From: Anaerolineaceae bacterium
GTDB lineage: Bacteria > Chloroflexota > Anaerolineae > Anaerolineales > Anaerolineaceae
Assembly: GCA_002702705.1 (NCBI GenBank)
Contig: PABH01000057.1
Span: 1-64,000 of the forward strand
Reading direction: 5' to 3'
DNA: 64,000 bases
In this document: in pieces, positions 7,337 through 61,628 of the stretch
Layout of the letters: each line of letters opens with the position of its first letter
Numbering within the stretch: position 1 is the first letter of the stretch
The notes under the pieces: model-generated
Told to the model about the DNA's origin: nothing
What the model saw: the letters and a program-made list of their open reading frames with translations, nothing else
Databases searched by the model: none
Program-made: the position numbers and the translations under genes

Positions 7337-7409
7337 GGCGAGGTAGCTCAGTCGGCAGAGCAGCGGACTCATAAGCCGTCGGTCGTGGGTTCAAGTCCCA
7401 CTCTCGCCA
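7337..7409 (+). tRNA. tRNA with CAT anticodon (probably elongator Met)
   Basis: This 73-nt cloverleaf has acceptor GGCGAGG/TCTCGCC, D-arm AGCTC...GAGC, loop CTCATAA with anticodon CAT at 7370-7372, and T-arm GTGGG/CCCAC with TTCAA. CCA is not encoded. The last pair of the anticodon stem appears to be A-G. It is not initiator-like (no GGG/CCC anticodon stem). The isoleucine tRNA modified by TilS also has CAT and cannot be excluded. Confidence 0.93.
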
Positions 7410-7414
7410 CAATC

Positions 7415-7440
7415 AAAGCCCCTATTAAGGGGCTTTTTTG
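7415..7440 (+). terminator. Rho-independent terminator after tRNA-Met
   Basis: Stem AAAGCCCC (7415-7422), loop TATTAA, stem GGGGCTTT followed by a T-run. It lies 5 bp after the tRNA. Confidence 0.93.
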
Positions 7441-7510
7441 TTTCCTATCCTTTAAATGAAATTTTTTCTATAAAGATTTAATTCGATTTTTATTGAATTC
7501 CTCCATTGAA

Positions 7511-7541
7511 GGTATTTTTACTTTCACTCAGTAAAAATACC
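7511..7541 (+). repeat. Perfect inverted repeat upstream of heliorhodopsin
   Basis: Arms GGTATTTTTACT (7511-7522) and AGTAAAAATACC (7530-7541) match perfectly over 12 bp around a 7-nt spacer. It lies about 100 bp before the heliorhodopsin ATG. The arms are AT-rich and have no T-run beyond, so an operator for a dimeric regulator is more likely than a terminator. Confidence 0.6.
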
Positions 7542-7643
7542 TATCGCCCAATACAAACGCTATACAAACTTGGTACATATTACTTTTTTTATATATACAA
7601 TTTATTTAAATTCAATAATAACTTAGTATAAAAAGAGGAAGAA

Positions 7644-8414
7644 ATGACCGAAGATAAAAAATTATTCCGTTTGCGCAGATTTAACTTGATTATGGGTTTT
7701 CTGCATTTGATTCAGGGTATATTAATGATCGTGCTCAGTAACGATACAGCCTACCCTATTTTTACCAACTTCTTAAAATTTGATGTATCCAAAATGGCCT
7801 TGGTTCCTGATCCCCAGCTTGCATTTGAACTCCGTTTTGGTCCTGCTGTTGCGGTTTTCTTATTACTTTCCGCCATCGCTCATTTTTTCCTGGCAACCAT
7901 CGGTTACAAGTTATACATCACAAATTTGAAGAAGGGTATGAACCCAGTACGTTTTTATGAATATGCCTTATCCTCATCGGTTATGATCGTTTTAATCGGC
8001 ATGTTGGTTGGTATATATGATCTGGGTGCCATCATTCTCATGTTCGGCATTAATGCCATGATGAACCTTTTTGGAATCATGATGGAATTCCACAATCAGC
8101 ACACCAAAAAAACCGATTGGACGGCTTTCATTTATGGGTCCATCGCAGGTATCATCCCCTGGATTGTGATTGTTGTTTATTTTATGGGTTCTTTAGCAGG
8201 CGAAGGTGGAGATCCTCCAGGATTCGTCTATGCGATCGTACCAACCTTATTTGTCTTCTTTAATATTTTTGCCATCAATATGATTTTACAATACAAAAAA
8301 GTTGGTAAATGGAAAGATTATCTTTACGGCGAACGGGTTTACATCATCCTCAGTCTGGCAGCCAAAACCGTTTTGGCATGGATCATCTTTGCCGGTACAT
8401 TAGCTCCAGTCTAA
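7644..8414 (+). CDS. Heliorhodopsin
   Basis: A 256-residue seven-helix retinal protein of the heliorhodopsin family, a group distinct from type 1 rhodopsins with inverted membrane topology (N-terminus inside). Family signatures seen: RFNLIMGFLHLIQG in helix 1, RFYEYALSSSVMIVLIGML in helix 3, FGINAMMNLFGIMME in helix 4, and LSLAAKTVLAWIIFAGTL in helix 7. K241 should carry the retinal Schiff base and E106 matches the known counterion glutamate; H21 and H80 match the conserved buried histidines. The ATG has AGAGGAAGAA upstream, and the gene is monocistronic with its own terminator. No retinal or carotenoid gene is in the window. Its function (signalling, enzyme regulation or other) is not settled for the family. 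Confidence 0.94.
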   Translation: MTEDKKLFRLRRFNLIMGFLHLIQGILMIVLSNDTAYPIFTNFLKFDVSKMALVPDPQLAFELRFGPAVAVFLLLSAIAHFFLATIGYKLYITNLKKGMNPVRFYEYALSSSVMIVLIGMLVGIYDLGAIILMFGINAMMNLFGIMMEFHNQHTKKTDWTAFIYGSIAGIIPWIVIVVYFMGSLAGEGGDPPGFVYAIVPTLFVFFNIFAINMILQYKKVGKWKDYLYGERVYIILSLAAKTVLAWIIFAGTLAPV

Positions 8415-8437: not shown

Positions 8438-8474
8438 AGGTCTTTACTTCAACGTGAGGACCTCTATTTTTTTA
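8438..8474 (+). terminator. Terminator after heliorhodopsin
   Basis: Stem AGGTCTT pairs with AGGACCT (one G-T pair) and is followed by CTATTTTTTT. It ends the single-gene heliorhodopsin transcript before the opposing gene. Confidence 0.8.
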
Positions 8475-36739: not shown

Positions 36740-37639
36740 TTACTTCAACAAATCCTGGATTGCCTGGGTATGCAAATTGTATTTAAACGAAAACCCATCC
36801 TGCAGTAATTTTTTTGGCAAAACATTCTGTCCATCCAAGACCAACGTGCTCATTTCCCCCAGAATCAAACGCAGTGCAAATCCTGGTACCGGAATCCAAT
36901 AAGGGCGGTTTAATACGGAAGCAATTTGTTTCCCAAATTCTGCATTCCTCACAGGGTTGGGACTGGTGATATTATAGATTCCACACGCCTCAGATGAATC
37001 AACAAAAAAACCCAATGCACCCGCCACATCATCAATATGCACCCAGGATACCCACTGTTTGCCATTTCCCAACGGACCACCTACAAATAATTTGAACGGA
37101 AGCAACATCTTCGGAAAAGCTCCCTCGGCTTTATCCAGCACCACCCCAAAACGGGCGATCACCACCCGGATACCGGTTACCGCTAAACCTTTGATAGAAG
37201 ATTCCCACTGCTTGCCAACCCCAGCCAAAAAATCATTTCCAAGGGAGGAACTCTCATCAAAAACCTGATTGTTTTCCGTACCGTAAATACCAATTGCGGA
37301 AGCCTGAACAAATAATTCGGGTTTATGTTCTGCTTGCAGCACCGCCTGGGTCAGCACCTGTCCGCTCTGCAACCGTGATTGAATAATTCGTTCTTTTTGG
37401 CTGTCTGTCCAGGGTTTATCGCCGATATTTTCACCAGCTAAATTAAGGATGACATCCACCTCATTCACAACCTGAGCCCAATCACCTAGTGTTTCCCCAT
37501 CCCATTCCACAAAAGTCACATTGCCTGATGAATGATGCGTTTTTTTATTACGCGTTAATACAAAAATTTCATCATTTTTTCGGCTGTCTATAAAATGGCT
37601 GCCGATTAAACCCGTTCCACCACTGATTAATATTTTCAT
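36740..37639 (-). CDS. TIGR01777 family epimerase (SDR)
   Basis: 299 residues. The N-terminal NAD(P)-binding loop is GGTGLIGSHF (8-17). NLAGENIGDKPWTDSQKERIIQSR (about 66-89) and SAIGIYG are family signatures, and a C-terminal DUF1731 piece (PVPGFALRLILGEMSTLVLDGQNVLPKKLLQDGF) ends it. This places it in the YfcH/SulA-like TIGR01777 group of extended short-chain dehydrogenases. Reaction unknown. ATG start. It borders the Rhs array. Confidence 0.93.
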   Translation of the reverse strand: MKILISGGTGLIGSHFIDSRKNDEIFVLTRNKKTHHSSGNVTFVEWDGETLGDWAQVVNEVDVILNLAGENIGDKPWTDSQKERIIQSRLQSGQVLTQAVLQAEHKPELFVQASAIGIYGTENNQVFDESSSLGNDFLAGVGKQWESSIKGLAVTGIRVVIARFGVVLDKAEGAFPKMLLPFKLFVGGPLGNGKQWVSWVHIDDVAGALGFFVDSSEACGIYNITSPNPVRNAEFGKQIASVLNRPYWIPVPGFALRLILGEMSTLVLDGQNVLPKKLLQDGFSFKYNLHTQAIQDLLK

Positions 37640-37699
37640 ATAATTTCACTCCAATGAGTCAAGTTTAATCAATTTTGGTTGGGTTGTGGAAAGTTTGTA

Positions 37700-37866
37700 T
37701 AGGTTATGTTAACCATTATCTCAAAGTCTACAGCCCGTTGTCCGGCCTGTCCTCGGAACAGGGATTTAGGTCTTATCCGTGGGAGATGTGCCGCTGGTGA
37801 AACGTTCCTCGCCAAACGGGAAGTAGCGCGTCTCGGCAAATTTGTTCCCGCTGGCATCCACAACAC
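37700..37866 (-). pseudogene. Degenerate Rhs core fragment (copy a)
   Basis: Reading leftward from 37866 the frame gives VVDASGNKFAETRYFPFGEERFTSGTSPTDKT and then a stop near 37767. Beyond it, to about 37700, faint similarity to the Rhs stretch TGQRSEDFGLMDYN continues out of frame. It matches the cores at 38979-39196 and 40385-40594 and starts at the same residue as they do. It is the worn-out end of the cassette array, with no toxin left. Confidence 0.8.
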
Positions 37867-37871
37867 GTTTA

Positions 37872-38216
37872 TTAATCTGAATCGTTTGTAAACTTTGGTC
37901 TTGTTTTATCTATGGACTCATTCATTTTATCTAATAATTCTTTGAAAAATACCCTGCCCCTACCTGGTGTTTCCGGAAATAACGCGAATTCCGAAAAAGC
38001 AATTTCATCCAGTTGGGTATCAGAAAAGTTTTCCAAGATTACCAATATTGCATCACGCTCTTCTTCCCACAGCATTAGACCTTGAATTTTAGATGACTGA
38101 AAAATCCAATCGCTAATTATGGAATATATTTCTTCAACCGTGAAACGATCTACTTCATCATAAAAATAAGAATATCCCATATGTCTCACAATTTCTCTTG
38201 CTTTATTAATGTCCAT
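37872..38216 (-). CDS. Candidate immunity protein for the RNase A-like Rhs toxin
   Basis: 114 residues from ATG at 38216, chosen because GGAGG stands 4 bases upstream; a longer frame to 38342 would overlap the toxin in another frame. The protein is acidic and mostly helical (INKAREIVRHMGYSYFYDEVDRFTVEEIYSIISDWIFQ...). It follows the toxin-bearing frame by 8 bp, the position where Rhs systems keep the cognate immunity gene. No family was recognised, so the role rests on position, size and composition. Confidence 0.7.
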   Translation of the reverse strand: MDINKAREIVRHMGYSYFYDEVDRFTVEEIYSIISDWIFQSSKIQGLMLWEEERDAILVILENFSDTQLDEIAFSEFALFPETPGRGRVFFKELLDKMNESIDKTRPKFTNDSD

Positions 38217-38224
38217 CAATCCTC

Positions 38225-38689
38225 CTATGGAATTGGATAAGTTGTATATAGACCCCAGTTTCCATTTCCATCGTACCATATCACCACTTTCGCTGGAGCT
38301 TTTCCAGATACGGGAACGATTGTTCCGCTCACATTTTGCCATCCAGTATAGTTTACTGTTGATCCTGTATAATCAAAAGTCCCTGGTTTCCCTGCATTTG
38401 CTCTATTGGCAATATCTGCCTGGTTAGTGGTTAATACGTTGTTCACTACGGCGGCCATTTCATTTTCATCACTGAATCTGGTTTGTGCTTTTGAAGAATT
38501 TCTAGCTGCACTAATTAAATCAGCATCTGTCGCATCAGGTCCGTGTTTATCCCTGGCATGTGATTTCGGGTTTCCACCTTCTACCGTCTGAATATAATTT
38601 TTTCCAGATTGTCCGGGTGTCCAAATCCAACCACTAACAAGTCCTCCAACAAAAACCGGAATTGATGGATCCAATGCCATATCATACAT
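38225..38689 (-). CDS. Rhs C-terminal toxin domain, RNase A-like (after in-frame stop)
   Basis: 154 residues from ATG 38689. KSHARDKHGPDATDADLISAARNS, then TRFSDENEMAAVVNNVL and the end VVIWYDGNGNWGLYTTYPIP resemble the CdiA/Rhs RNase A-like toxin domain (paired H residues, F-D-x-x-E-A block, final TxYP). It is in the same frame as the Rhs core piece to its right, separated only by TAA at 38701-38699 and three codons. The intact ancestor would have been one Rhs-CT protein. As it stands the toxin could only be made from the internal ATG. Confidence 0.72.
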   Translation of the reverse strand: MYDMALDPSIPVFVGGLVSGWIWTPGQSGKNYIQTVEGGNPKSHARDKHGPDATDADLISAARNSSKAQTRFSDENEMAAVVNNVLTTNQADIANRANAGKPGTFDYTGSTVNYTGWQNVSGTIVPVSGKAPAKVVIWYDGNGNWGLYTTYPIP

Positions 38690-38698
38690 TGGATTAAA

Positions 38699-39196
38699 TT
38701 AACTATACCCCATTTGTGATCCAGCAGCGCTAATGGAACGTCCTAATGATGCATAAGCACCATCAGGAATTGAATTTAGACTAGAGGTATCTTCAGATAT
38801 AAAATAATTTGCAAGGGCAACCTCAACATAATTTGGAAAGACATTTCCACCTTGGACGATACGATACGAATTATCTGATGTGGTTCTTACACATAAACCA
38901 TCTTGTAGTTCGATACAATGCTCGCTTGGATCGCTATACCGGATAGGGTTATTCAGGACGTACCCATACCGATCCCATGCGAGGACGTTCCCCGGGTCGG
39001 GGATGATGGTGTCGGCGCTGATAAACTTGCCCAGCAGCGGCGAGTAATACCGTGCATTGTAATCCATCAGACCAAAGTCTTCGCTGCGCTGCCCGGTGTA
39101 TGTTTTGTCCGTGGGGGAAGTTCCGTCGGTGTAACGTTCCTCGCCAAACGGGAAGTAGCGCGTCTCGGCGACTTTGTTACCACCGGCATCCACCAC
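38699..39196 (-). pseudogene. Rhs core fragment (copy b), cut by in-frame stop before its toxin
   Basis: 165 residues from GTG 39196. The Rhs core VDAGGNKVAETRYFPFGEERYTDGTSPTDKTYTGQRSEDFGLMDYNARYYSPLLGKFISADTIIPDPGNVLAWDRYGYVLNNPIRYSDPSEHC takes up residues 1-92. It contains the RHS-associated core end (DYNARYYSPLLGKFISAD...NPxxYxDP), after which variable toxin sequence begins. It lacks all YD repeats upstream: the frame meets TAG at about 39218. The frame ends at TAA 38701-38699, directly before the RNase A-like toxin in the same frame. Confidence 0.85.
38979..39196 (-). repeat. Rhs core direct repeat, copy b
   Basis: Near-identical to 40385-40594 (copy c), including a stretch of about 74 identical bases at 38979-39052 and another of about 40 covering the TDKTYTGQRS codons. 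It is clearly GC-richer than the AT-rich toxin and immunity parts around it. Such homology lets orphan cassettes recombine into a full rhs gene. Confidence 0.85.
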
Positions 39197-39253
39197 CAGC
39201 GCGGTGGACGAGACCTACGCCTTCACATTGAAAAACTAATTATGACATATCGC

Positions 39254-39652
39254 CTACTTAAAATTGTTTCCGTTATAAATTTTTTGTATAAATGCAAAGA
39301 AATCCTTTGCTATATCAATAACATCATTTGGATAATCTCCAAAATAAGGGTACATCACGAAACACTTCTTTTTTTTATCGTAAGCATAAACCTCCCCCCC
39401 GCCATCTGATCCCAAAAAAAGAAGGTTTGGTGCAATTGACCTTATCATGTACAATTCTTCCATTTGTTCCATCTCATGAGATGACCATAATTGTATATAA
39501 CCTTTTCCTATTGAGCCAATCGCCCCATTAGAATATTTGTAAAATTCAATGACATCCTCGGGGAATGGATGGTCTTTTCTAAACTCATCAATGCTTCCAA
39601 GCCCTTCATTTAGTTCTAATTCTTGAATATATTTTTCAAATTTTTTTTTCAT
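39254..39652 (-). CDS. SUKH (SMI1/KNR4) family immunity protein
   Basis: 132 residues. PEDVIEFYKYSNGAIGSIGKGYIQLWSSHEMEQMEELY, then LFLGSDGGGEVYAYDKKKKCFVMYPYFGDYPNDVIDIAKDFFAFI match the SMI1/KNR4 (SUKH-1) fold: the N-G patch, the L-F-L-G-S-D-G-G-G-E motif and the helix at the end. SUKH proteins are common immunity proteins that neutralise nuclease toxins of polymorphic systems. It begins 2 bases after the HNH toxin stop, as expected for its cognate inhibitor. Confidence 0.9.
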   Translation of the reverse strand: MKKKFEKYIQELELNEGLGSIDEFRKDHPFPEDVIEFYKYSNGAIGSIGKGYIQLWSSHEMEQMEELYMIRSIAPNLLFLGSDGGGEVYAYDKKKKCFVMYPYFGDYPNDVIDIAKDFFAFIQKIYNGNNFK

Positions 39653-39654
39653 GT

Positions 39655-40473
39655 CTACTTCACTTTCGTCACTGATCTTCTAACTTTATCCCAAAATTTA
39701 TTATATACATAGTGTTCAGTAGGAGGCAATGCGATCTTATTGGATTCTGCCGTGGGGCTACCACCAAATCGTACTGGGTGGATTTCATGTATATGTAAGC
39801 CTTTCCACTGTGGGTTATTCCTTTGCAATCTTTGATTAGTGCTGTTAGCTAATCTACGTGCTATGTCATACTCCTCTTTTGAGATTAAGTTGAATGGACC
39901 AGAAGAACGAGGTGCTGGTCCATCTGGATATCCATCCCAGTTTATCACAGAGAAATCTCCTTCCTGTATACTTGCAAGATCATCAACAATTCCTAAAGAA
40001 GAGTTCGTTGGTTTATTAAAGGATACGGCTATTTGCCCAAGACCAACTACCGTGGCAGCAGTCTCAACAGCAAAACTTCCAACCCTTATTGAAGGGCCTA
40101 TTCGATCCAAGAGCGGTTCATTGGAAAAGACTGTATCAACATCATCATTCATTTGATGAACAGCATCAGCAGTGTCAACAATTAAGTCTTTCCCTCCGGT
40201 TGCCTCCAATCCTAATATAACTGGATCTCGCACACCATTTAGATAAGCGATCCCAGCATCAAATAGATCTTTTCCGCATGAGAAAATGATTCCCCATACA
40301 TTTTGTCCGATAGAATAACTACAGTGTCCCGTTGGATCATTATAGTTAATCGGGTTATTATAGGCATACCCATAACGGTCCCAGGCGAGGACGTTCCCCG
40401 GGTCGGGGATGATGGTGTCGGCGCTGATAAACTTGCCCAGCAGCGGCGAGTAATACCGCGCATTGTAATCCAT
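39655..40473 (-). CDS. Orphan Rhs-CT with HNH-type nuclease toxin (copy c)
   Basis: 272 residues from ATG 40473, but the Rhs core reads in frame back to about 40594 (ASGNKVAETRYFPFGEERYTSGTSPTDKTYTGQRSEDSGL) with no start codon, after a TGA at about 40606. Residues 1-50 hold the core end DYNARYYSPLLGKFISAD...NDPTGHC. A helical linker follows, then a toxin tip with GLHIHEIHPVRFGGSPTAESNKIALPPTEHYVYNKFWDK (about 222-262), an HNH/xHH-type nuclease signature. Without YD repeats or a secretion signal it is likely a silent donor cassette. Confidence 0.85.
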   Translation of the reverse strand: MDYNARYYSPLLGKFISADTIIPDPGNVLAWDRYGYAYNNPINYNDPTGHCSYSIGQNVWGIIFSCGKDLFDAGIAYLNGVRDPVILGLEATGGKDLIVDTADAVHQMNDDVDTVFSNEPLLDRIGPSIRVGSFAVETAATVVGLGQIAVSFNKPTNSSLGIVDDLASIQEGDFSVINWDGYPDGPAPRSSGPFNLISKEEYDIARRLANSTNQRLQRNNPQWKGLHIHEIHPVRFGGSPTAESNKIALPPTEHYVYNKFWDKVRRSVTKVK

Positions 40474-40594
40474 TAACCCAGAGTCTTCACTGCGCTGCCC
40501 GGTGTATGTTTTGTCCGTGGGGGAAGTTCCGCTGGTGTAACGTTCCTCACCAAATGGAAAATAGCGCGTCTCGGCGACTTTGTTGCCGCTGGCA
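40385..40594 (-). repeat. Rhs core direct repeat, copy c
   Basis: Partner of 38979-39196. Like copies a and b it begins at the codons for VV(D/I)A(S/G)GNK, so all three were cut or joined at one point in the core. Confidence 0.82.
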
Positions 40595-40644
40595 ATTACA
40601 ACTCATTTGTTTGCGATTATGAAAAATAATAAATTTTATGCCGA

Positions 40645-41184
40645 TTATTTAATTCCTGTAATTAATTTTTTCGCTAAAGCTATTTCAACAGCTCGGCAAC
40701 CAAAGAGGCTGTCCTTTGGTATTTTTAATATTTCTTCATCAATATTAACTTTTTTTTCGGAAATTGGATTTCCGGAACCGGAATAATCTTGCCCATAATC
40801 TACAATATAGGCAAGATCTTCAGGGTATGGTGGATTTCTAAGAAACAACGGAACAGGCCAATCTTGACGGGAAAATGCTTTCCCCTCACTAATTAATGGC
40901 CATGTCCCATTAATTATTCCTAAATCTCCAAACATACAAACCAATATTGCATTCGATTTATTTTTCTCCAAAGTATCTATTCCTGTTGGAAGTTCAGTAT
41001 ATCTAGGACCAAAAAAATACCCCAAACCACCTTTGGTTTTAAATGCACCTCTAACAATGATTCCCATACCGTAACCATAATCTCGTAAAGGAACAGCGAA
41101 CCAACTTCCTTCGAAGTACTGAATTTTTTCCTGGTCATTATATTCTCCTTTTTTAAAAAATTCATCGCGATCCGCTTTGACCAT
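40645..41184 (-). CDS. Imm26-like immunity protein without adjacent toxin
   Basis: 179 residues. EGSWFAVPLRDYGYGMGIIVRGAFKTKGGLGYFFGPRY (about 25-62) fits the Imm26 family pattern (WFAVPL..G.G.G...R......GYFFG), known as immunity to polymorphic toxins. Its stop lies about 50 bp before the Rhs copy c, so it is the distal member of a further cassette whose toxin should lie to the right, where only 256 bp of non-coding DNA remain before the HNH gene. It therefore looks like a kept immunity gene after toxin loss. ATG start with a weak ribosome site. Confidence 0.78.
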   Translation of the reverse strand: MVKADRDEFFKKGEYNDQEKIQYFEGSWFAVPLRDYGYGMGIIVRGAFKTKGGLGYFFGPRYTELPTGIDTLEKNKSNAILVCMFGDLGIINGTWPLISEGKAFSRQDWPVPLFLRNPPYPEDLAYIVDYGQDYSGSGNPISEKKVNIDEEILKIPKDSLFGCRAVEIALAKKLITGIK

Positions 41185-58179: not shown

Positions 58180-61100
58180 TTACACTCTTTCTACACCGAC
58201 GGTTACCGTTTCTCCATCAAATTCACTGGTAACTTGAGGAAGATCTTCCGATGGTTTTTCAGCTTTCATTTCCACTGTTAAGGTTTCGGCCATCACATAG
58301 TCTTCAAAATCCTTAAGCGCTTTCGCTAATTTCGGCGAAGCTTCAACCTTCAGTTTGATTCGATCTGAAATATCAAATTCAGCGGATTTACGTAAATCCT
58401 GCACCCGACGTACAAACTCTCTTGCCAAACCTTCTTTTTCCAATTCCGGAGTCAGGTCTGTCACCAGGGCAGCCAGGTATGCTCCTTCGGAAGCAACTGC
58501 ATAGCCTTCTTTTGCCAGGGAGCGAACTTCCACTTCTTCAGGAAGAATATCAAATTGCTCACCATTAACTTCGAGTTGAACAGATTCATCTGCTAATAAG
58601 GTCTTCGCTACCTTTTCTGCATCCAAAGCCATTAAAGCACAGCGGATAGCAGGGAAATTTTTACCATATTTTTGCCCAAGCTGCTTCGGTAAAGGTTTGA
58701 TCTCATAAGCCACGGCTTCCGTTGCGGCGTCCAAAGCCCGTACATGTTTAACATTCAGTTCATCTTCCAAAATATCTGCGTATTTAAGGATAACTTTTTG
58801 TTCTTCAACATTACCCACAGAAAATGCAGCTTCAGCTAACGGTTGGCGCACTTTGCGATTTGCTTTATTACGAGCTGCGTGCCCAACAGATGCCAGTTTC
58901 ATTACCACGGCCATTTCACGGTTCAGTTCCTCATTAATCGCCGCCTCATCATAAGCTGGCCAAAAGGCAAGGTGAACCGAATCAGGCATACCAGGTTCCA
59001 CATCCCTAACCAAATTTTGATATAGTTCTTCTGCCATAAAGGGCATGGTCGGAGCCAACAATTTACTGATGGTGGTTAAGGCTTCGTACAGGGTGGCATA
59101 AGCCGCATATTTATCCCCATCCGATTCGCTCTTCCAGAAACGGCGGCGAGAACGGCGTAAATACCAGTTGGAAAGCTGATCGACAAACACTTCGATTGGC
59201 CGGGTTGCGCCCAAGACATCGTAATTTTCCAGCGCTATCGTCACGTCCCGAACCAGGGTATGTAAAGCACTGCGCACCCACTGATCCAACGGGCTGTATT
59301 CCGGGGTAACTCCAGCTTCAGGTTTCCAGCCATCCAGATTGGCATAAGTCACAAAGAATGAATAGGTATTCCAAAGGGTTAAGGTGAAATTCCGCAGCAC
59401 TTCCCCAACCAAGTCACTGGAAAATCGCCGTTCTTGTCCTGGCGGGCTGGCCGTGTATAAATACCAGCGCATCGCATCAGCACCATTTTTATCGAGCACT
59501 TCCCATGGGCTGACCACATTCCCTTTCGTTTTGGACATTTTTTGACCTTCACCATCCAAAATCAAGCCTAAACAAATGACATTTTTATAAGCTACTTCAT
59601 CAAATAACAAGGTGCTGATGGCGTGTAAAGAATAAAACCAACCACGTGTTTGGTCTACTGCTTCACAGATGAAATCAGCCGGAAACTGTTGCTTAAATTG
59701 TTCTTCATTTTCAAATGGATAATGCCACTGAGAAACCGGCATAGAACCTGAATCAAACCAGACATCAATCAATTCCGGCACACGCTGCATCTGACCGCCG
59801 CATTCCTGGCACTTAAAGTGAACTTCATCCACATGTGGACGGTGCAAATCCAGCTCGGATTGATCCTTACCGGTGAGGGTACTTAATTCTGCCACAGAAC
59901 CAACGCAGTGTTGGTGACCGCAGTCTTCACACTGCCAAACCGGTAATGGAGTTCCCCAATAACGCTCACGGCCTAAAGCCCAGTCAACATTATTCTCCAA
60001 CCAATTACCAAACCGGCCATTTTTAATATGTTCCGGATACCAATTGATCTTCTGATTAAGTGCCACCAGACGATCTTTATATACGCTGGTACGAACATAC
60101 CAGGTTGGCCGAGCGTAATATAACAATGGTGTGGCACAGCGCCAGCAGAAGGGATAAGTGTGGGTATACGTTCCTGCTCGGAATAATAAACCTCGTTCTT
60201 TTAAGTTTTCAAGGATTTTCGGATCAGCCTCTTTTACAAAAACGCCAGCCCAAGGAGTCACTTCTTCTTTAAAGCAGCCATCCGGGTTTACGGTCATCAA
60301 AACCGGTAAATCCTCTTCGTTAGAGACGGCCATATCATCGGCACCAAAAGCAGGTGCAATGTGTACCAGACCGGTCCCATCTTCGGTGGTCACAAAATCG
60401 CCAAGCACCACGCGGTGAGCAGGTTTTTCTAGTGGCAGGAATTTAAATAAAGGTTCATACTGACGACCTTTTAAGTCTTTGCCCTTAAATCGTTCCAAAA
60501 TAGTGACTTCTTCTTCACCAAACACCTTCTCCAGCAGTGCTTCTGCCAGGATCAGTTTTTCAGTATGGTCATCATGCAAAACACGCTCAACTTTCACATA
60601 ATCGACCTTAGCTCCAGCCGCGATGGCTACATTAGCTGGTAACGTCCAGGGAGTGGTGGTCCATACCAAGAAAGAGGTATCCGGTTCGTCCAAAAGCCGC
60701 ATGCGCACAAACACGGAAGGATCATCCGCATCCTTATAACCTTGCGCCACTTCATGGTCGGAAAGAGGTGTGCCACAGCGTGGGCAGTAAGGTACCACTT
60801 TAAAACCCTGGTACAACAAATCTTTTTCCCAGAACTGTTTCAAAATCCACCAGGTCGATTCAATAAAAGAGTTCTTAAAGGTGATATACGCAGTTTCCAA
60901 ATCAACCCAGAAGGCAATTCGGTCCGTCAGTTTTTCCCATTCTTGAATATAGGTAAAAGCAGATTCGCGGCATAAGGCATTAAATTTATCAATACCATAA
61001 TCTTCGATTTGTTGTTTATTGGTAAAACCCAATTGTTTTTCAACTTCAATTTCAACCGGCAAACCATGAGTATCCCAGCCGCCCCGGCGGGAAACAAAGT

Positions 61101-61329
61101 GACCGGTCATGGTTTTATAACGAGGAAAAATGTCTTTAAAAGCCCGGGCTAAAACATGGTGCACACCCGGTCTGCCATTAGCCGTTGGCGGACCTTCATA
61201 AAAGACATAATTGGGTCCATCTTTGCGTTCTTCCAAAGTACGGTGAAAAACATTTTCTTGTTTCCACAAATTGAGAACGCCTTCTTCAATTTTGTTTACA
61301 TCCAATCTCGGCGTTACTGGTTTAAACAT
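58180..61329 (-). CDS. ileS: Isoleucyl-tRNA synthetase, type 2, with GXHH signature
   Basis: 1049 residues. It is the eukaryote-like IleRS2 form: FYEGPPTANGRPGVHH at 43-58, with CP1 editing domain (TTTPWTLPANVAIAAG, GTGLVHIAPAFGADD) and KMSKTKGN. Where HxGH is expected, the aligned residues are G55-V56-H57-H58, so first and third residues are swapped. Published work on IleRS2 describes this GXHH type as mupirocin hyper-resistant. Cysteine pairs CPRCG, CEDCG and CQECGG bind zinc. The C-terminal anticodon-binding region is complete. Expression is under a T-box leader. ATG with AGGAGG. Confidence 0.97.
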   Translation of the reverse strand: MFKPVTPRLDVNKIEEGVLNLWKQENVFHRTLEERKDGPNYVFYEGPPTANGRPGVHHVLARAFKDIFPRYKTMTGHFVSRRGGWDTHGLPVEIEVEKQLGFTNKQQIEDYGIDKFNALCRESAFTYIQEWEKLTDRIAFWVDLETAYITFKNSFIESTWWILKQFWEKDLLYQGFKVVPYCPRCGTPLSDHEVAQGYKDADDPSVFVRMRLLDEPDTSFLVWTTTPWTLPANVAIAAGAKVDYVKVERVLHDDHTEKLILAEALLEKVFGEEEVTILERFKGKDLKGRQYEPLFKFLPLEKPAHRVVLGDFVTTEDGTGLVHIAPAFGADDMAVSNEEDLPVLMTVNPDGCFKEEVTPWAGVFVKEADPKILENLKERGLLFRAGTYTHTYPFCWRCATPLLYYARPTWYVRTSVYKDRLVALNQKINWYPEHIKNGRFGNWLENNVDWALGRERYWGTPLPVWQCEDCGHQHCVGSVAELSTLTGKDQSELDLHRPHVDEVHFKCQECGGQMQRVPELIDVWFDSGSMPVSQWHYPFENEEQFKQQFPADFICEAVDQTRGWFYSLHAISTLLFDEVAYKNVICLGLILDGEGQKMSKTKGNVVSPWEVLDKNGADAMRWYLYTASPPGQERRFSSDLVGEVLRNFTLTLWNTYSFFVTYANLDGWKPEAGVTPEYSPLDQWVRSALHTLVRDVTIALENYDVLGATRPIEVFVDQLSNWYLRRSRRRFWKSESDGDKYAAYATLYEALTTISKLLAPTMPFMAEELYQNLVRDVEPGMPDSVHLAFWPAYDEAAINEELNREMAVVMKLASVGHAARNKANRKVRQPLAEAAFSVGNVEEQKVILKYADILEDELNVKHVRALDAATEAVAYEIKPLPKQLGQKYGKNFPAIRCALMALDAEKVAKTLLADESVQLEVNGEQFDILPEEVEVRSLAKEGYAVASEGAYLAALVTDLTPELEKEGLAREFVRRVQDLRKSAEFDISDRIKLKVEASPKLAKALKDFEDYVMAETLTVEMKAEKPSEDLPQVTSEFDGETVTVGVERV

Positions 61330-61347: not shown

Positions 61348-61628
61348 AAAAAATCCTCGTCCAATCAGGGACGAGAAAAAATTCCCGCGGTACCACCCTG
61401 CTTCTCACAAGAGATGCAAGCACTCAACAGATACATCCAAAAGGTAGATCTGCGCCTTGATAACGGTTGGCGGATCCGTCTCCCCTACTTACAACTACAA
61501 GGTTGTGTTCAGTTTGAAGCTCCGGAAGGATTTTCGATTCCGCGTCCTGCCCCGGCTCACACCACACCCGGGTTCGCTGACAGCACGTTTTGAAATTTAC
61601 TCGTTTCCATCATCACTGATTATTGATT
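61348..61628 (-). promoter_or_regulatory. T-box riboswitch of ileS
   Basis: The leader carries the T-box antiterminator AGGGTGGTACCGCG (complement of 61386-61399), then a terminator CTCGTCC-CTGATT-GGACGAG with a T-run (61375-61348). Stem I shows GAGTAAA near the start and GGTGTGAGCCGG in the middle. The specifier is an ATC (Ile) in GAAAATCC, complement of 61529-61531; a second ATC lies at 61536-61538. Uncharged tRNA-Ile(GAT) would pair there and turn ileS on. Confidence 0.95.

Follow-up and report, generated by a model that had tools for sequence, protein, structure and literature searches.

Candidate CarH-like repeats at the promoter of a heliorhodopsin gene in an Anaerolineaceae bacterium

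What controls a heliorhodopsin gene that stands alone in the genome of an Anaerolineaceae bacterium, and from where could its product obtain retinal? The gene lies in the window, by which we mean the whole 64,000-nucleotide stretch of DNA that was analysed, located on contig C59 of a 5.9-Mb genome that is 97% complete. An earlier note on this DNA had recognized the gene and its key residues, placed it in a probably anaerobic-type lineage of Anaerolineae and asked about the source of retinal. Here, we examine the protein, its promoter and the genes that could supply its chromophore.

The heliorhodopsin gene and its predicted product

The coding sequence (7644–8414, + strand) specifies 256 amino acids, and its identity as a heliorhodopsin is borne out by several lines of evidence. 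A Pfam profile search matched PF18761 (E = 9.1e-103, residues 10–253 against profile positions 1–242), and the NCBIfam equivalog NF038020 matched at 2.4e-112 (374 bits; cut-off, 100). The best PDB sequence match is TaHeR (6is6/7clj; 6e-75), and the AlphaFold model (pLDDT 90), which has seven long helices and two antiparallel β strands predicted in the A-B loop (36–47 and 52–64), aligns with the same structures at a TM-score of 0.95. The residues that the earlier note had listed (K241, E106, H21 and H80) are all present and, together with S110 and S237, are invariant across an alignment of 38 sequences. Both the SxxxK motif (S237–K241) and the ESL motif (E106, S110 and L117) occur in the window protein. 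On these profile, residue and fold comparisons, the protein is a bona fide heliorhodopsin, a predicted seven-helix membrane photoreceptor that is new as a protein but belongs to a known family. Retinal attachment is predicted at K241, with E106 as the predicted counterion. An inverted topology, with a cytoplasmic N terminus, is suggested solely by the fold match to TaHeR.

TaHeR, from the Thermoplasmatales archaeon SG8-52-1 (6is6/7u55), is 49% identical to the window protein and shares the Schiff-base lysine, the counterion glutamate and the two histidines. The two differ in host and genetic setting: the TaHeR host is reportedly without retinal production (PMC9385722), whereas the genome studied here has crtB, crtI and crtY. 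A closer relative is BcHeR of Bellilinea caldifistulae, also of the Anaerolineaceae, which was characterized in 2019 by Shibukawa, as cited in PMC7807009. It is 74% identical (locus L109); however, it sits on another heliorhodopsin branch in the tree and has no phased TnnACA pair (see below) upstream of its gene.

The gene is monocistronic, as had been proposed. Its unit is bounded upstream by a tRNA-Met gene (7337–7410, +) with an intrinsic-terminator–like hairpin (7415–7436, +) and downstream by a second such hairpin followed by a T-rich tail (8438–8463, +), after which the next genes lie on the opposite strand. A ribosome-binding site, AGAGGA, can be read directly from the sequence at 7634–7639 (+). 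The perfect inverted repeat described earlier is also real: it spans 7510–7542, with 13-bp arms, a 7-bp loop and no T-run, and is the longest perfect inverted repeat (loop under 20) in the window. However, the genome has no second copy of it, and the sequences upstream of the nearest two heliorhodopsin genes (L084 and L085) lack it. Nothing therefore ties it to heliorhodopsin; we rejected it as a regulatory element of the gene and assign it no role.

Phased 11-bp repeats at the promoter

Five 11-bp units at 7550–7604 (+) form a candidate CarH/LitR-like operator: AATACAAACGC TATACAAACTT GGTACATATTA CTTTTTTTATA TATACAATTTA. TACA recurs in phase in four of the five. Operators of CarH, a B12-dependent light repressor, are tandem 11-bp repeats of the form nnnnTnnACAn (PMC9304148). 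The likeness to the CarH systems of Thermus thermophilus and Bacillus megaterium lies in repeat length, phase and the TnnACA core. The difference is that the candidate operator has two strict repeats, non-adjacent and 33 bp apart, together with two pseudorepeats. The promoters of the closest relatives, L084 and L085, carry the same pattern in different sequence (GGTACACTTAT TATACATAATG TGTACGCATAG TGTACATAAGG and TATACAATTAT TGTACACTTTA, respectively).

Across 81 distinct heliorhodopsin upstream regions, nine had TnnACA pairs spaced 11 or 22 bp apart, versus a mean of 0.52 in 500 dinucleotide shuffles (maximum, three loci with pairs); the other 72 had no strict pair at these spacings. Pair spacing peaked at 11, 22 and 33 bp (eight, four and four loci), with at most two loci at any other spacing, and the upstream regions with phased pairs were spread over several heliorhodopsin branches. 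Note that visual inspection of the window, L084 and L085 promoters had suggested the motif before it was tested, and that all three are within the 81; seven upstream regions with phased pairs are left without L084 and L085. When 256 motifs of the same shape were ranked at 11 bp, TnnACA shared first place with AnnAAA, a motif whose sites are more than twice as numerous.

We also scanned both strands of 1.97 Mb of the genome itself, about a third (33%) of its 5.9 Mb. The heliorhodopsin promoter was the sole case of a block with TACA in phase in four of five units in these 3.94 million strand-bases, and none of 20,000 shuffles of its 200-bp upstream region gave such a block. Strict blocks, defined as TnnACA in three of five units, numbered three in the 1.97 Mb. 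One has no gene start downstream on the same strand. Another, a second candidate operator in the window (37658–37712, −; TTAACATAACC TATACAAACTT TCCACAACCCA, three TnnACA units in phase), lies about 20 to 73 bp 5′ of the start codon of a TIGR01777-family SDR/epimerase gene (36740–37639, −; NCBIfam 1.5e-94), which we propose to be co-regulated. The third is in the promoter of a DegV-TspO operon (C30:283876). A DUF1295 gene on that contig, about 128 kb from the operon, also has a block ahead of it, which is looser and on the opposite strand. Neither crtI nor the P450-crtY pair of this genome showed a repeat block ahead of it. Elsewhere, a weaker phased-TACA block (L182:4445–4490, contig C12) lies just 5′ of a thioredoxin-like lipoprotein gene that has a CcdA-like gene downstream.

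DegV, DUF1295 and TspO-like proteins are among the commonest neighbors of heliorhodopsin, being encoded beside it in 12, 8 and 8 of 75 related loci, respectively. Compared with these neighbors, the DUF1295 protein of our genome is 71% identical, its DegV 39% and its TspO-like protein 40%. Published neighbor groups include photolyase, MerR, SDR and DUF2177, among others (PMC11109279), and DegV and Blh neighbors are cited in PMC9385722; the same families recur around Anaerolineae heliorhodopsins. The texts of PMC11109279 and PMC8612252, in contrast to our analysis, mention no CarH/LitR identity or operator. Our genome thus seems to hold, dispersed, genes that its relatives keep beside heliorhodopsin, joined by a candidate operator.

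A MerR and B12-binding protein with the Wx9EH signature is encoded within about 4 kb of heliorhodopsin at six related loci, and at five of these its gene is upstream on the same strand. The best PDB match of this protein is CarH of Thermus (3e-26; domains and structure match were tested on the L144 protein). At L139, two repeats overlap the TTGACA-16-TATAAT promoter of carH. Peroxiredoxin-like genes beside heliorhodopsin or its remnant in three genomes (G004, G006 and G007) likewise have phased repeats in their promoters. Unlike known CarH systems, no carH was located within 1.97 of the 5.9 Mb of our genome with six CarH-like queries; DNA-binding-domain matches came only from an IS607-type resolvase and a short MerR. 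A further difference is that the proposed targets are heliorhodopsin and the DegV-TspO, DUF1295 and SDR genes rather than crt genes. As a separate observation, an IS607-type resolvase gene followed by a TnpB-like transposase gene is found at a contig end (L188:1–1500, contig C18).

Could the repeats be a product of chance, or ordinary features of AT-rich promoters, with heliorhodopsin expressed constitutively? The intergenic DNA is indeed AT-rich, strict pairs are confined to nine upstream regions, and the third of the genome that was read has yielded no carH. We nevertheless consider this explanation unlikely, because the peaks at 11, 22 and 33 bp are sharp and far above the dinucleotide shuffles, the four-of-five block is unique in the part of the genome read, and other blocks fall on promoters of heliorhodopsin-neighbor families.

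Respiration, carotenoids and the supply of retinal

The Anaerolineae background given in the earlier note is right: the related loci are labeled Anaerolineaceae or Anaerolineales, and heliorhodopsin-positive relatives in the same family include B. caldifistulae. The label 'anaerobic-type' is wrong for this genome, which encodes two heme-copper oxidase subunits I (C20 and C46) and cytochrome bd (C38). COX1 and bd are common to relatives in the same genus.

The genome also encodes phytoene synthase (crtB; C41:2078–2824, 3.6e-73), with the desaturase gene crtI beside it on the same contig (TIGR02734, 1.6e-179), and lycopene cyclase (crtY; C69:4511–5620, 1.7e-56). Because all three genes are present, synthesis of beta-carotene is likely. 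Carotene hydroxylation is plausible, as crtY adjoins a P450 gene whose product has CYP175A1 and plant carotene hydroxylases among its PDB relatives. The earlier statement that no retinal biosynthesis genes are nearby thus holds for the neighborhood but not for the genome, where crtB and crtY are on other contigs. Among the carotenoid and cleavage genes for which the note had suggested a search, crtB, crtI and crtY narrow the question of the retinal source to the cleavage step. No RPE65-type carotenoid oxygenase was found in our genome, although controls and a same-genus genome (G007) do match. Blh/Brp (BCD, PF15461) gave no match in our genome and one weak match, below cut-off, across 301 Chloroflexota, with a profile that matched no positive control.

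In G007, the RPE65-type enzyme is a carotenoid cleavage dioxygenase encoded by the third gene of a crtB-crtI-dioxygenase cluster (L046:9646–13571, contig C11). Its closest solved structure is 6vcf (2.5e-167), an enzyme from archaea that is not known to yield retinal from beta-carotene. We therefore make no claim that it is the retinal-forming enzyme of the genus. The isolate genome of B. caldifistulae (G010, locus L066), 99% complete, has an intact heliorhodopsin and a lycopene-cyclase match with no phytoene synthase match.

Co-occurrence, which the earlier note had proposed to test, depends on the taxonomic range considered. Within the genus, intact heliorhodopsin and intact crtB occur together in four genomes, and in the remaining four each is either absent or disrupted; one of these, G001, has broken copies of both. 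A link across the family was rejected: crtB was found in 6 of 21 genomes with intact heliorhodopsin versus 10 of 52 others (P = 0.53), so that the association is seen only within the genus. Oxygen respiration as a requirement for heliorhodopsin was likewise rejected, the trend being the opposite. COX1 and bd were both absent from 13 of 25 genomes with intact heliorhodopsin versus 20 of 96 others (P = 0.004 over the order and 0.06 in the family, with a statistic that ignores phylogeny).

Two questions that the earlier note had treated as one can therefore be separated. Our genome can make the precursor, whereas about a dozen relatives face a problem of retinal supply that is real: 12 with intact heliorhodopsin have no crtB, crtY, COX1 or bd. 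In these, the protein must either obtain retinal from an external source or function without it. Uptake of exogenous retinal through a fenestration has been proposed for TaHeR (PMC9385722), and the lack of carotenoid oxygenases in Chloroflexi that host rhodopsins has been discussed (PMC5459899); the supply question is thus not new.

The same observations bear on whether, in our genome too, the gene is kept for a protein that mostly does without retinal or scavenges it, with the carotenoids serving photoprotection only. Such a role would fit the 12 relatives, the lateral opening of TaHeR and the lack of an RPE65-type or Blh match (the latter from a profile without a positive-control match). It is doubtful given that intact heliorhodopsin and intact crtB coincide in the genus (four of four versus zero of four), that both are broken in G001, and that K241 and E106 are invariant.

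A candidate light regulon and the distribution of heliorhodopsin

Taking these results jointly, we lean toward a reading in which a bona fide heliorhodopsin, in a host that makes beta-carotene itself, is transcribed under probable light control through a CarH/LitR-type repressor. The broader proposal, that Anaerolineae heliorhodopsin is a target of a CarH-type B12 photoreceptor within a dispersed light regulon, we regard as evenly balanced. That regulon would include the DegV-TspO, DUF1295 and TIGR01777 SDR genes and, in relatives, also those for a photolyase-related protein, DUF2177 and peroxiredoxins.

CarH control, which we infer, would operate as follows. In the dark, a B12-dependent MerR repressor of the CarH/LitR type would bind the phased repeats at 7550–7604 and keep heliorhodopsin off, together with the unlinked DegV-TspO operon, DUF1295 gene and TIGR01777 SDR gene. 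Light would destroy the adenosylcobalamin form of the repressor, the repeats would be released, and heliorhodopsin and the co-regulated genes would be turned on. The beta-carotene precursor would come from the genome's own crtB, crtI and crtY, followed by cleavage to retinal by some enzyme, or else retinal would be taken up. On binding this retinal, whether from cleaved carotene or external, heliorhodopsin would become a second, retinal-based sensor or modulator. Since CarH needs no oxygen, such a regulon would function in the relatives without oxidases as well.

If this is true, a B12-based light sensor sets the timing of synthesis of a retinal-based one. Furthermore, the genes beside heliorhodopsin vary between genomes, and a shared operator would list functional partners even when they are not adjacent. 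It would also make heliorhodopsin function testable via the genes that answer light and B12 together with it. The new part is the presence of CarH-like promoter repeats at heliorhodopsin and at genes of heliorhodopsin-neighbor families. We found no text linking heliorhodopsin with CarH in the literature; coverage was incomplete, and novelty is thus unproven.

A different role, as the physical helper of one enzyme, has been reported with photolyase, glutamine synthetase or an ABC transporter as partner (PMC9769723 and PMC11109279); on this reading the promoter repeats would be irrelevant. In the same-genus genomes G006 and G007, heliorhodopsin is the last gene in a run of SDR, photolyase-related protein, DUF2177 and heliorhodopsin, an arrangement that would suit such a helper. 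In the window, however, heliorhodopsin is solitary, with its downstream neighbors on the other strand, and the PF04244 photolyase-related protein is absent from the genome. We give this role somewhat less weight than either alternative above, noting that a helper role and light-gated transcription could coexist.

As for characterized prokaryotic heliorhodopsins, for which sensory roles have been argued (PMC8612252), the protein would by analogy be a light sensor or modulator rather than an ion pump. A light-driven proton transporter, as was shown for a viral heliorhodopsin of the same family (PMC9448325), is very improbable, given that the closest structures are TaHeR and 48C12 and that no pumping is described for prokaryotic heliorhodopsins in the reviewed literature (PMC8612252).

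In the tree, the genus's intact heliorhodopsins are split among three positions. The window protein groups with those of G040 and L084 (100/100), that of G005 with L154/L156 (100/100), and that of G006 with G007 (100/99). Vertical inheritance within the genus was rejected, as a single clade is incompatible with the data both with G005 (AU test, P = 1.5e-5) and without it (P = 0.0014). These three positions indicate that members of the family have exchanged heliorhodopsin or have differed in retaining it.

Decaying heliorhodopsin genes were observed at L027, L029, L028/L030 and L026 (G001, G004, G024 and G037). That of G001 has an internal TAA, and that of G024 has a TAG and a frame break. In G037, the lysine-bearing C-terminal part is in another frame. 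G004 retains a fragment, with DUF2177 and the peroxiredoxin promoter repeats kept. Beyond the Chloroflexota, we found heliorhodopsin in seven contigs of Trueperaceae (Deinococcota; L108, L121, L132, L138, L141, L145 and L149) and in two MAG contigs labeled Spirochaetes (L103 and L150), which may bear on the claim that heliorhodopsins occur only in monoderms.

Two other features of the window deserve mention. The region at 37872–41184 resembles an Rhs polymorphic region, with YD-repeat/Rhs-like C termini in two related copies (sequence DYNARYYSPLLGKFISADTI) and small open reading frames between them. A T-box leader (61364–61622) lies upstream of the isoleucyl-tRNA synthetase gene (58180–61329, −).
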